A stretch of 33,760 bases of DNA from Microbacterium sp. (lineage in GTDB: Bacteria > Actinomycetota > Actinomycetes > Actinomycetales > Microbacteriaceae), in the NCBI GenBank assembly GCA_029239165.1, contig JAQZBG010000039.1:1-33760 (forward strand). Reading direction: 5' to 3'. A model generated the notes under the pieces. It saw only the letters and a list, made by a program, of their open reading frames with translations, was not told the origin of the DNA and made no database searches. Of this stretch, positions 330-6,615 are shown piece after piece. Both the position numbers and the translations under genes were made by a program. Within the stretch, counting starts at the first letter, position 1, and each line of letters starts with the position of its first letter.

Positions 330-1181
330 TCAGCGCACCTGACGGGCGGTGAACTGCAGTCGCGGGTTGGCGTAGAACTCCTGCGCCTCGACCAGCTGAA
401 GTTCGCGCTCACCGGATTCGAGAGTGACCTTCAACAGGTCGTAGACGCTGGACGCCGTGCGCTCCAGAGCGATCTTCGCGCTGCCGGTCTCGACATAGTG
501 CGCCGTGAACAGCGCCGCCGTCACATCGCCGGAGCCGTTCGCCTTCATCGGCAGGTGCGGGGTCTGCACGAGCCAGGCGCCCTGGTCGTCGGCGGCGAGC
601 ATCTCGATGGTGCCCTGTTCGCGGTCGGGACGCTCGACGCTCGTCACCAGCACCGTGCGCGGGCCCATCGCGTGGGCGAGGTCGACCGATGCGAGTGTGG
701 ACTCGAGCGTGTCCGGCTCGGTGCCGGTGAGGAAGCCGAGCTCGAACTGGTTCGGCGTGATGATGTCGGCGACCGGGACGACGCGCTCACGCAGCAGCAC
801 GGGGATGGCCGGAGCCACGAAGCACCCCGACTTCGCGTTGCCCATGACCGGGTCGCAGGCGTAGACGGCGTTCGGATTGGCGGCCTTCACACGCGCGACG
901 GCGTCGATGATCACGTCTCCGATGCCTTCCCCGCCCTGGTAGCCGCTGAGAATCGCGTCGACCTGACCGAAGACCCCGCGCTCCTCGATGCCGGTGATGA
1001 CCTCGCGGACGTCGTCCGGAGCGATCAGCGGCCCGCGCCAGGCGCCGTAGCCGGTGTGGTTGGAGAAGTTCACGGTGTAGACCGGGAGCACCTCGACGCC
1101 GATGCGCTGCAGCGGGAACACCGCAGCGGAGTTGCCCACGTGCCCGTAGGCGACGGCTGACTGGATGGAGAGGATCTTCAT
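330..1181 (-). CDS. pdxY: Pyridoxal kinase PdxY
   Basis: MKILSIQSAVAYGHVGNSAAVFPLQRIG..., CDPVMGNAKSGCFV, ITPNQFELGFLTG, KANGSGDVTAALF are typical of PdxY/PdxK-family kinases. Confidence 0.93.
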   Translation of the reverse strand: MKILSIQSAVAYGHVGNSAAVFPLQRIGVEVLPVYTVNFSNHTGYGAWRGPLIAPDDVREVITGIEERGVFGQVDAILSGYQGGEGIGDVIIDAVARVKAANPNAVYACDPVMGNAKSGCFVAPAIPVLLRERVVPVADIITPNQFELGFLTGTEPDTLESTLASVDLAHAMGPRTVLVTSVERPDREQGTIEMLAADDQGAWLVQTPHLPMKANGSGDVTAALFTAHYVETGSAKIALERTASSVYDLLKVTLESGERELQLVEAQEFYANPRLQFTARQVR

Positions 1182-1226
1182 TCTCCGGCTCTTTCGTTCA
1201 GGGCAGGCGGGTGCCCGCGAGGGTGG

Positions 1227-2534
1227 TCATCGCCCGGCGGCGACGAGATCGGCGACGAGGGTCTCGGCGTCATCATCGGTCAGGTCGTGCACGGTCAGGC
1301 GAAGGTGGTGCGAGGGGTCTGCGCGGTCGTCGAGCGCGAAGTCGTCGCCGGTGCGGGCCAACCACCCCCGGCGCATCAGCCGATCGGCGACGATTCGGGC
1401 GGGTTGCGGCAGTTCGACCCACAGGCTCAGACCGTCGGACGCCGTCGCATCGATACCGCCGGCGCGCAGTCGTTCGGCGAAGGCGGCGTTCCGCTCCGCG
1501 TAGTGGGTGGCCGCTGTGGCGACCTCGGACATCACGCTCTCATCGGTCAGCTGCGTCAGTGCGAGACGCTGCAGGAGGTGACTCACCCACGTGGTGCCGG
1601 GACTCAGGCGCATCGCCAACCGCTCGGCGGTCTCCGCATCCGTCGCCGCGATCGCGAGGCACATATCGGGGCCGAGGAACTTCGACACGGAACGGACGAG
1701 CGCGAATCGACGGTGGTCCGGGCCGATGAGTGACTCGTACGGGCGCTGCGAGAGCATCGAGAAGTGATCGTCCTCGATGATCAGCACGTACGGGTGGTCG
1801 GCGAGCACAGCTCGCAGATCCGCGGCTCGCGACGCCGTGAGGCTCGCCCCGGTGGGGTTCTGCGCGCGCGGGGTGCAGATGATCGCGCGGACTCCGGCAT
1901 CCAGGGCGGCACGCAACCCGTCGACGGTCATGCCCTCGGAATCCACGGGGACGGGGATGGCTCGGTACCCGCCGAGGCGCACCGTGTGGATGCTGGCCAG
2001 GAAGCAGGGGTCCTCGAGAGCCACCGCATCGTCGCGCATCAGCGCCTGCGCGAGCAATCGCTCCACCGCGTCGACCGCGCCGCTGGTGATCGTGATGCGG
2101 AAGTCGACGTCGGTGAGGTCGGCCGAGATCCACCGCCGTGCCCACTCCTCGAGTCCCCGGTCGATCACGGGCTCGCCGTAGAGGACGGGGCGCGAGGCGA
2201 TGGTCATCAGGGCGGATGCCGGATCGGGGATGAGTCGCGGGTCCGGGTTGCCCGTGCCGATGTCCCGGAGAACCGTGTCGGGGGCATACCCCTCCTGCGC
2301 CACGGCTTCGAGGCCCGCGACCACGGTGCCGGCGCGTCCGCGCGAGATCACCAGTCCGGCCTGAGCGAGTTGACGGTACGCGGCAACGGCGGTGTTCCGA
2401 TTCACGCCCAGGGTCGCGGCCAACTCGCGCACCGGCGGAAGAACGCTCCCGGGCTGCAGGGCTCCGCGGTCGCGCAGCGAACGCACGCTGTCGGCGATCT
2501 CCGATGCGGTGGTGCCTGTGATCTGGTCGCTCAT
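1227..2534 (-). CDS. MocR-family regulator (GntR wHTH fused to aminotransferase-like domain), likely PdxR
   Basis: N-terminal GntR wHTH (LPPVRELAATLGVNRNTAVAAYRQLAQAGLV) plus PLP fold type I aminotransferase domain; divergent from pdxST. Confidence 0.88.
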   Translation of the reverse strand: MSDQITGTTASEIADSVRSLRDRGALQPGSVLPPVRELAATLGVNRNTAVAAYRQLAQAGLVISRGRAGTVVAGLEAVAQEGYAPDTVLRDIGTGNPDPRLIPDPASALMTIASRPVLYGEPVIDRGLEEWARRWISADLTDVDFRITITSGAVDAVERLLAQALMRDDAVALEDPCFLASIHTVRLGGYRAIPVPVDSEGMTVDGLRAALDAGVRAIICTPRAQNPTGASLTASRAADLRAVLADHPYVLIIEDDHFSMLSQRPYESLIGPDHRRFALVRSVSKFLGPDMCLAIAATDAETAERLAMRLSPGTTWVSHLLQRLALTQLTDESVMSEVATAATHYAERNAAFAERLRAGGIDATASDGLSLWVELPQPARIVADRLMRRGWLARTGDDFALDDRADPSHHLRLTVHDLTDDDAETLVADLVAAGR

Positions 2535-2544
2535 GGTCCTCCTC

Positions 2545-2593
2545 AGTGATTCTAGGTCGAATCGGACAGTGCTACGTTTGATCTAGATCAAAC
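2545..2593. promoter_or_regulatory. Candidate PdxR operator region between divergent mocR-type gene and pdxS
   Basis: AGTGATTCTA (2545-2554), AGTGCTA (2568-2574) and perfect 18-bp palindrome GTTTGATCTAGATCAAAC (2576-2593) in a 90-bp divergent intergenic gap. Confidence 0.6.
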
Positions 2594-2624
2594 CCGACTT
2601 CGGTGCATCCGACAGGAGTTCCCC

Positions 2625-3518
2625 ATGACCGAGCAGACAACCACTGGATCCTCGCGCGTCAAGCGCGGCCTCGCCGAGATGCTCAAGGGCGGCGTCATCA
2701 TGGACGTCGTCACCGCTGAACAGGCGAAGATCGCCGAAGACGCGGGCGCCGTCGCCGTCATGGCGCTCGAGCGTGTGCCGGCCGACATCCGTGCACAGGG
2801 TGGCGTCTCACGCATGAGCGACCCCGACATGATCGACAGCATCATCGATGCGGTCTCGATCCCGGTGATGGCGAAGGCGCGCATCGGACACTTCGTCGAG
2901 GCCCAGGTGCTGCAAGAGCTGGGCGTCGACTACATCGACGAGTCCGAAGTGCTCTCGCCGGCCGACTACGTGAACCACATCGACAAGTACCGGTTCACCG
3001 TGCCGTTCGTGTGCGGCGCCACCAACCTGGGGGAGGCACTCCGCCGCATCAACGAAGGTGCGGCGATGATCCGCTCCAAGGGCGAGGCCGGCACCGGCGA
3101 CGTCTCCGAGGCGATGAAGCACATCCGCAAGATCCGTGGAGAGATCGCGGCCCTCGCGGCTCTCCCCAAGGACGAGCTGTACGTCGCCGCCAAAGAGCTC
3201 CAGGCGCCGTACGAGCTGGTCGCGGAGATCGCGGAGACGGGCACGCTTCCCGTCGTGCTGTTCGTGGCCGGAGGAGTCGCGACCCCGGCGGACGCCGCGA
3301 TGATGATGCAGCTCGGAGCCGACGGCGTCTTCGTGGGCTCGGGCATCTTCAAGTCGGGCAACCCGGCCGAGCGCGCCAAGGCCATCGTCAAGGCCACCAC
3401 GTTCTTCGACGACGCCACCGTGATCGCGGAGGTCTCGCGCGGACTCGGCGAGGCGATGGTGGGCATCAACGTCAGTGACCTCCCCGCGCCGCACCGTCTC
3501 GCCGAGCGTGGCTGGTAA
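2625..3518 (+). CDS. pdxS: Pyridoxal 5'-phosphate synthase lyase subunit PdxS
   Basis: [56 protein letters not shown] and the rest are highly conserved PdxS sequence. Confidence 0.98.
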
Positions 3519-4796: not shown

Positions 4797-4940
4797 GCAT
4801 CCATCCTCCGCCATCCGTGCCGATCGTCCGACAGGACGCTGCTCCAGAGGGTCTGTTGGCGGAAGACGCATCGTGAATCCCGCAAGCATTTACGTGGGAT
4901 GAGCCGGCTCGGTCGAAGGTTTCGTGCCCGGTCGCAGCGG

Positions 4941-6311
4941 TCACCAACGGATACGCAGAAACTCCGCACGGAGTTTCTCGCCTCGCTGGGGGTTCAGGGT
5001 CTCGACCCAGGAGATGGGGCCGAGCAGATGTGCACGGAAATCGACGAGTCGGCGGTGATTCTGGCTGCCCGGACCGTGCACGACGCAGTTGTGGATCGTC
5101 GCCTTGAGCCGGTCGTAGTCGTCCCGTGAGACATTCGTTCGCTGGTTGACGACGATTCCGGTCACGCTCTGCCTGACGCCCTGGCGTCGGACCCTCGTTT
5201 TGTGGGGGTTGGCCAGGTGCCCCTCGTCCTCGATGATCCGCTGCACACCACGGATGAAGGCATCAGGTCGCTTCGCGAGTCTCGGACCGCCGCTGAACGC
5301 GAGGTCATCGGCGTATCGCGTGTAGGTCGCATCGACGCCATCCGCCCATCCCGTCAGCCGTGAATCGAGGCGCCGGATGGCGAGGTTAGCAAGCATCGGC
5401 GAGGAGGGGGCGCCCTGCGGCAGATGACTCGTGGCCAGAGCCCGACGTAGGGCGAACCGCTCGTCGGATGATCCGCCCGGTGGCATGGCAGCAAGCACGC
5501 GCGGAGGAACGGCGTTGGTGCACAGCCCGGTCACGACGTGCGCGACGGGTTCGGACAGTCCCGACTGCCGAAGTGTTCCGTAGATGCGACCGGCCGTCAC
5601 GCGGGAGAAGAACGTGGTGAGGTCGAGGGATATGACGATGTCGGCCCCCGTGTGGCGCGCCGCCCCAGTGGCCGCGCTGCGACCGGGCATGAAGCCGTGG
5701 GCGGCATCGTTCACGGCTATGAGGCCGAGCACCTGTTCCAGGAGACCGCGCTGCACGCGGCGCATCCGTTGCTCCGGGATCTCCAGCAACCTGGGGATCC
5801 GCCCGTGCCGTGTGCGCCACTCGTACCGGTAGTGGTGCAAGGCGCCTGAGCGTGCGCGACGATTCCACTGTTTGGTGTCGGCGAGCCACTGGAGCTGGCC
5901 GACGTCCAGATCGAGCGCGGCGGCGAGATCCGGGATGCTGTCGATGCGGGGAAGAGCGCCCGAGGGCGGCTGCGACGCCGACGGACCGATTACGCGGTGG
6001 TGGATGCGCAACGGCGCGCGGCGCTCGTCGGCCTTGCGCACCGCTTCTGCGAAATCGGGCGAGCGGAGGATCACCGACGTCAGCAGTCGCGGGGCATCGA
6101 CAGGCGGGCGGACGAAGGAGGTCAACACGTCGCCGACGAGCGGAGAGAGCCAACGGCGACGCGCTCCCATGACGTACGCGCCGGCCTCGACGAGCTGCTC
6201 TTTCGCCCAGACCTCTGAGGCGAGGAAAGCATCGGCCAGAGAGGCGGCCACCAACGACGGCAACGGTCGCGGCGTGCGCCCAAGCACGCGTGACGCGGTG
6301 GAGGGCGGCAT
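4941..6311 (-). CDS. Retron-type reverse transcriptase with about 120-aa N-terminal extension
   Basis: RT motifs: ISLDLTTFF, LPQGAPSSPMLANL, YTRYADDLAFSG, NPHKTRVRRQGVRQSVTGIVVN (VTG of region Y), and C-terminal HLLGPISWVETLNPQRGEKLRAEF typical of retron RTs. Confidence 0.93.
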   Translation of the reverse strand: MPPSTASRVLGRTPRPLPSLVAASLADAFLASEVWAKEQLVEAGAYVMGARRRWLSPLVGDVLTSFVRPPVDAPRLLTSVILRSPDFAEAVRKADERRAPLRIHHRVIGPSASQPPSGALPRIDSIPDLAAALDLDVGQLQWLADTKQWNRRARSGALHHYRYEWRTRHGRIPRLLEIPEQRMRRVQRGLLEQVLGLIAVNDAAHGFMPGRSAATGAARHTGADIVISLDLTTFFSRVTAGRIYGTLRQSGLSEPVAHVVTGLCTNAVPPRVLAAMPPGGSSDERFALRRALATSHLPQGAPSSPMLANLAIRRLDSRLTGWADGVDATYTRYADDLAFSGGPRLAKRPDAFIRGVQRIIEDEGHLANPHKTRVRRQGVRQSVTGIVVNQRTNVSRDDYDRLKATIHNCVVHGPGSQNHRRLVDFRAHLLGPISWVETLNPQRGEKLRAEFLRIRW

Positions 6312-6339
6312 CAGTGGGCAGCCGTGGAGCGGGCACCGG

Positions 6340-6510
6340 GCGTGCGATGGCCTGCGTACGACTCGTCCATCAGTGCGGGCACCGGTCTGCGCGAAGCGCA
6401 GTAAGGCGCCTGCGGCGTTCGTTCCAGGTCAGACTGCGTACCCCGGGGTGACCCCGGAGAGAGCGGAACACGTCGTGAACCACTCGCCTCGTCCGCAAGC
6501 CATCGCACGC
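6340..6510 (-). ncRNA. Candidate retron msr-msd non-coding RNA
   Basis: Inverted repeat a1 (6489-6510) and a2 (6340-6361): GCGTGCGATGGCTTGCGGACGA pairs with TCGTACGCAGGCCATCGCACGC (20 WC, 1 G.U, 1 mismatch). Internal hairpins at 6441-6459 and 6375-6413. Located directly upstream of the RT on the same strand. Confidence 0.85.
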
Positions 6511-6514
6511 GGCC

Positions 6515-6520
6515 ACGATA
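6515..6520 (-). promoter_or_regulatory. Possible -10 element (TATCGT) for the retron ncRNA/RT transcript
   Basis: TATCGT on the minus strand (plus-strand acgata) fits TAnnnT; expected start is about 5-8 nt downstream, at the beginning of a1. No clear -35. Confidence 0.4.
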
Positions 6521-6615
6521 GCAAGGAACACCAACGTCCGGATGGCATCGACCGCCGCCCCGGGCGATTGCGCGACTACGCGGCCATTCGCGAATATGCG
6601 AGCGCGTCAGCCCCT

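Follow-up and report, generated by a model that had tools for sequence, protein, structure and literature searches.

The window analyzed here, 33,760 nucleotides (nt) of contig JAQZBG010000039.1 of Microbacterium sp. (assembly GCA_029239165.1), carries on its minus strand a reverse transcriptase (RT) gene preceded by an inverted repeat, a1/a2, and a promoter (Table 1). An earlier reading of the sequence, hereafter the original prediction, took this repeat for the a1/a2 helix of a retron delimiting a 171-nt non-coding RNA (ncRNA). Sequence and coordinates of the repeat were exact: its arms pair over 22 positions (20 Watson–Crick pairs, one U·G wobble and one G·A mismatch) and are separated by 127 nt, and a further 28 nt separate the end of a2 from the RT start codon (ATG at 6311). 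The minus-strand fold of 6330–6520 is closed by the a1/a2 helix (−99.8 kcal/mol, z −3.3), and none of 200 shuffled sequences was equally stable. Across the entire window, a1/a2 is the top-scoring long-range inverted repeat. Its minus-strand score of 49.5 exceeds the resample maximum of 48.5 and was reached in 0 of 100 whole-window Markov resamples, bearing out the claim that chance is an unlikely source. On the plus strand the score drops to 44, since the U·G pair turns into C·A, in agreement with an RNA transcribed from the minus strand. The wobble pair had itself been taken as a sign of selection on RNA pairing; a single wobble is not evidence of this, whereas covariation across genomes is.

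Table 1. Features of the probable retron locus, numbered along the window
Feature	Position	Strand	Remarks
Transferable unit (promoter, ncRNA and RT), ~1.64 kb	4912..6554	-	Found in other contexts in Microbacterium sp. TPD7012 and M. murale
Extended -10 element (TGC TATCGT)	6515..6520	-	Predicted transcription start 6508, inside a1
a1, 5' arm of terminal helix	6489..6510	-	GCGTGCGATGGCTTGCGGACGA; exact coordinates, fold, covariation
Predicted priming (branching) guanosine	6488	-	Directly after a1, GAGG; by analogy to the retron rule (PMC6868368); invariant G in alignment A2
msr stem-loop 1	6461..6485	-	11 pairs, two-sided changes in 10
msr stem-loop 2	6441..6459	-	CUCCGGGG-NNA-CCCCGGGG, nearly invariant; in distant phyla two-sided changes in 4/8 pairs
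Stem-loop 3, predicted msd (reverse-transcribed) hairpin	6375..6413	-	Helices 4 and 5 covary; msd assignment by analogy
a2, 3' arm of terminal helix	6340..6361	-	TCGTACGCAGGCCATCGCACGC; exact coordinates, fold, covariation
Leaderless leader open reading frame, GTG 6508 to TGA 6313-6311	6311..6508	-	65 codons, spans whole ncRNA; stop shares its A with the RT ATG (TGATG; UGAUG in RNA)
Retron reverse transcriptase, 456 aa	4941..6311	-	PADLOC RT_other / RT_outgroup
RT N-terminal six-helix domain, residues 1-96	6024..6311	-	Confident in predicted structure

In related genomes, the compensatory change between a1 and a2 proved massive. Among 37 ncRNAs of the family Microbacteriaceae (alignment A2, with rows selected for having the a1/a2 repeat and internal hairpins left unselected), two-sided changes occur in 20 of the 22 a1/a2 pairs, the two innermost being invariant; the compensatory changes pass through G–U intermediates around a core constant at 127 nt. 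The unselected internal hairpins covary as well, and covariation of the whole structure amounts to 0.413, versus 0.148 in shuffled and 0.055–0.114 in slid controls, with 87% of cells paired. A covariance model built from A2 recovers family members outside it at E < 1e-15. When applied to 80 GTDB loci chosen by RT protein only, the model matched over its full length immediately adjacent to the RT in 79, spanning Actinomycetota, Acidobacteria, Planctomycetes, Proteobacteria and Myxococcota; the sole outlier, L141, offers only a short stretch of DNA ahead of its RT. Homologous RT loci devoid of a1/a2, which would have spoken against the repeat, were also sought among the Microbacteriaceae, and every complete homologue there carries the ncRNA beside the RT. 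A distant set of 59 sequences shows two-sided change in 49 of 56 pairs, a covariation of 0.576 compared with 0.150 after shuffling, and 90% of cells paired versus 63%. Upstream of nearly all RTs of the family there is a helix of 16–30 positions, whose core measures exactly 127 nt with few exceptions, despite differing sequence. No Rfam family matched the ncRNA at either gathering or permissive thresholds.

The internal anatomy follows the retron layout, with msr stem-loops succeeded by a putative msd hairpin, and all three hairpins covary. RNAalifold predicts an additional short closing helix between the bases following a1 and those preceding the msd hairpin. By analogy with known retrons, G6488 is the likely primer for reverse transcription; its context, GAGG in the window and CAAGC or CGAGC in distant homologues, represents an AGC-like motif. 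The adjoining retron RT, the compensatory change and the recurrence of the ncRNA beside homologous RTs together uphold the placement of the repeat as retron a1/a2.

Judged by sequence, the RT is a full retron RT. Its highest-ranking PADLOC matches, RT_other (PDLC02949; 573 bits, E 1.6e-172) and RT_outgroup (PDLC03740; 536 bits, E 1.2e-161), are full-length and include the N-terminal extension. The best NCBIfam models are likewise retron RTs, with scores below their cut-offs, and a profile of 18 homologues ranks retron RTs first in the PDB. The AlphaFold (AF2) model has a confidence (pLDDT) of 92.7, and the 18 PDB structures closest to it in fold are without exception retron RTs, with a TM-score of 0.80 (on target) to Ec86. 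The VTG of region Y is invariant, and region X reads GAxxH, that is, an NAxxH motif with its Asn substituted, as is also the case in Mx65 and Ec48 (PMC6868368). The RT occurs in 45 of 400 genomes of the same family and in 12 of 85 genera, mostly at 50–65% identity, the nearest named relatives being those of Microbacterium sp. TPD7012 (94%) and M. murale (86%). For the N-terminal six-helix domain (residues 1–96), no relative was detected in Pfam or in the PDB (best E 2.0). This conserved domain is the most likely candidate for a sensor or effector part, as no effector gene is present: neighbor clustering in 44 plus 80 loci yielded no conserved genes other than the RT, frames overlapping it and generic ABC transporters, and no known effector, either separate or fused as in tripartite retrons, was found.

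The unit is preceded by its own promoter. A TANNNT box begins 5–15 nt before a1 in 38 of 43 Micrococcales loci and in 54 of 59 distant loci, compared with means of 0.9 and 2.6 loci, respectively, in upstream control windows of equal width. The −10 box supports the 5' end of the ncRNA, placing the transcription start at 6508, compared with 6510 in the original prediction. The 3' end at a2 (6340) is putative, because transcription has to continue into the RT gene. The designation as a 171-nt ncRNA also held in part: the RNA is structured, and in the Microbacteriaceae lineage it is not solely non-coding, since it carries an open reading frame (ORF) coupled to a start codon.

This leader ORF was counted in 54 Micrococcales-type loci, those without a start codon included. 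An in-frame ATG or GTG lies at the 5' end of a1 in 43 of them, and in 41 of these 43 a −10 box (TANNNT) is located 11–13 nt upstream of that codon, as against 1 of 10 and 0 of 22 starts in control phases. The leader frame reaches the RT in 42 of the 43 loci, ending with its stop on the RT start codon in 20 and fused in frame in 22; where the a1 start codon is missing, it does so in only 3 of 11. The window belongs to the 20 loci whose leader frame differs from the RT frame. In the Curtobacterium group, a1 is shifted, and both start codon and −10 box are shifted along with it. Overlaps between leader stop and RT start are of the ATGA, GTGA and TGATG types, and the same overlap recurs in several other Actinomycetota and in a Myxococcus group. 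Stop–start overlaps of the ATGA and TGATG types are described as a basis of translational coupling (PMC6728339); here, the upstream "gene" would be the retron template RNA itself. In L066 (7846–8017), a one-base insertion in stem-loop 2 accompanies a leader fused in frame to the RT, while relatives in its genus are stop–start coupled; in both states, ribosomes could arrive at the RT. The fused protein of L043 (8170–9666) has an RT_other match (profile positions 27–57) that extends into residues encoded by the ncRNA, so the a1 start codon may have been used as the annotated start of the proteins behind this profile.

We assign a probability of roughly 80% to the interpretation that the locus, as read from its sequence, is a compact two-part retron of an uncharacterized class whose ncRNA also acts as a leader in Microbacteriaceae. 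Transcription would start from the promoter at about 6520 at position 6508, at the 5' end of a1, and the RNA would fold into the a1/a2 helix, two msr stem-loops and the msd hairpin. The RT would bind this RNA, prime from the 2'-OH of G6488 and copy the msd hairpin into a short, branched multicopy single-stranded DNA (msDNA). In Microbacteriaceae, the template RNA probably has a second role as a translated leader to which production of the RT is coupled: it would first serve as a leaderless message, with ribosomes starting at the GTG in a1, traversing the ncRNA and arriving at the RT through in-frame fusion or stop–start coupling. Because that GTG is part of the a1/a2 helix, an RNA molecule that has folded into the retron structure should no longer yield RT, amounting to autoregulation. 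A tentative extension, which we hold to be possible though doubtful, is that the template RNA is also a message switch: once RT and ncRNA assemble, a1/a2 pairing would hide the leaderless start codon, leaving translation and retron assembly as mutually exclusive states of one RNA. In that case, inhibition of host translation, such as a phage might cause, could by itself alter the balance of RT to template, and, together with the lack of an effector gene, retrons would gain a new regulatory and functional plan. The locus makes it possible to test directly if ribosomes translate a retron template RNA and if this controls the RT supply. By analogy with retrons of known function, the biological role is probably phage defence.

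Several points weigh against the two-part retron with a leader function. Substitutions in the leader frame display no clear or consistent codon-position bias, so no peptide is under visible selection; ribosome passage, rather than a peptide, therefore appears to be what is kept. The leader of L040 is closed early by a premature stop, the only such case among the 43. Acidobacteria, Planctomycetes and Burkholderia-type loci mostly lack the stop–start overlap, and the leader ORF is absent from most distant phyla. Genomes that are related do not count as independent samples, and the proportions of paired cells, 87% in A2 and 90% in the distant alignment A5, are somewhat inflated because A2 rows were picked for the repeat and the covariance model itself produced the A5 alignment, a concern that the slid and shuffled controls partly answer.

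Of the rival explanations, the most durable holds that the RNA is only a cis-acting leader regulating RT translation and not a template for reverse transcription, as the leader ORF, its start-codon coupling in Micrococcales and the start codon within a1 would suggest. The distribution of inverted ncRNAs bears directly on it. Five genomes were sampled from one Microbacteriaceae genus (L060, L062, L063, L068 and L069), and in every one the ncRNA lies on the strand opposite the RT with its own −10 element, an orientation unusual for retrons; the ncRNA is inverted in a Solirubrobacterales contig as well (L101, 4758–4936). The a1 start codon is absent from all five inverted ncRNAs of that genus, whereas the whole structure is retained, although such an RNA cannot be an RT leader. 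Keeping the structure without the start codon shows that the two roles, RNA structure and RT leader, are separable. Since the structure also persists in phyla without a leader ORF, and its anatomy matches the msr–msd plan beside a retron RT, a purely cis-acting leader is improbable.

Slightly less credible still is an RT of another RNA-templated system, of the defence-associated RT (DRT) or diversity-generating retroelement (DGR) type, making a different cDNA. Some DRTs also use a neighboring structured RNA (PMC12039810), and the window locus has no effector gene. However, hidden Markov model, PDB sequence and fold searches all place DRT2, DGR and group II enzymes far below retron RTs, and a1/a2 followed by a G constitutes a retron layout. 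It is very unlikely that the region is merely the start of the RT coding sequence with its structure as a by-product: the frame from the a1 start is fused to the RT frame in 22 loci, and the RT_other profile reaches into the fused part of one protein, but the frame is unlike that of the RT in 20 loci including the window, codon positions carry no signal, and conservation of the RNA extends to loci with closed frames and to inverted copies. A DNA feature (terminal inverted repeat or binding palindrome) or chance pairing, for which only the high G+C content and the mobility of the unit speak, can be practically dismissed given the resampling, the strand-specific wobble, the covariation with G–U intermediates, the constant 127-nt core, and unit ends that do not coincide with a1/a2.

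The two-part retron can be placed among known systems. Its RT belongs to the same family as PADLOC RT_other and RT_outgroup, already catalogued as retron RTs without assigned type, for which the library model comprises protein only. We found no published description of the ncRNA, promoter, two-part composition or leader ORF of the RT_other class, in a search that did not cover the main classification (Mestre 2020); the newness of the ncRNA itself is provisional. To our knowledge, neither a retron template RNA overlapping a coupled leader ORF nor an inverted ncRNA has been described. This unassigned RT class gains a defined RNA partner, for which a covariance model is at hand and whose conservation reaches from Actinomycetota as far as Proteobacteria and Planctomycetes, and effector-less two-part retrons are added from G+C-rich actinobacteria, a group for which we found no characterized retron in the literature consulted. 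Retron Eco1 (Ec86) resembles the window unit in RT fold, msr–msd–RT order and a1/a2 helix; the window unit differs in lacking an effector gene and in having the six-helix N-terminal domain and a leader ORF through the ncRNA.

The myxobacterial retrons Mx162 (Mxa1) and Mx65 (Mxa2), of type XIII (PADLOC RT_XIII), share the extended N-terminus; in Mx65, the Asn of NAxxH is likewise substituted, and the priming site is GAGC (PMC6868368). We infer from the lengths and motifs of their RTs that L184 and L187 are Mx162 and L183 is Mx65. The window RT scores 288 bits against RT_XIII (573 against RT_other), compared with 443 for Mx162-like and 418 for Mx65-like RTs, which sets it outside type XIII. The same a1/a2 search recovers arms of 33–34 positions at Mx162-like loci, where, unlike in the window, the ncRNA has neither an a1 start codon nor an open frame. 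The window ncRNA model matches neither Mx162-like nor Mx65-like type XIII loci in Myxococcus. Identity of the window RT family with Mx65 was considered and rejected, as Mx65-like L183 fits type XIII and carries no match to the model. A further Myxococcus RT group is 42–44% identical to the window RT, and the ncRNA model matches all members searched. This window-class retron is present in addition to the Mx162-like and Mx65-like ones in about half of 27 sampled Myxococcus-type genomes (e.g., L165, L171 and L181), where the stop–start overlap of leader ORF and RT is also found. An Arthrobacter-like copy of RT and ncRNA, 53–57% identical to that of the window, occurs in L081, titled Vibrio cholerae strain 35D, and in L079, a metagenome-assembled genome titled Acidobacteria bacterium; the former record is probably mislabelled or contaminated, and the latter may be a binning error.

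Nucleotide identity to the window is limited to 6554–4912 for L093 (95%) and to 6550–4940 for L075 (85%), with differing flanks. Since identity is confined to the unit while contexts differ, promoter, ncRNA and RT together form the transferred unit. The family resides on chromosomes or large replicons. A phage origin was rejected, as the RTs in viral contigs and phage records are all distant and lack the N-terminal domain. In the window, the retron is surrounded by housekeeping genes rather than a defence island; a nearby vitamin B6 cluster (330–3518) comprises ordinary genes for the pyridoxal kinase PdxY, a PtsJ/MocR-like regulator and the synthase PdxS.
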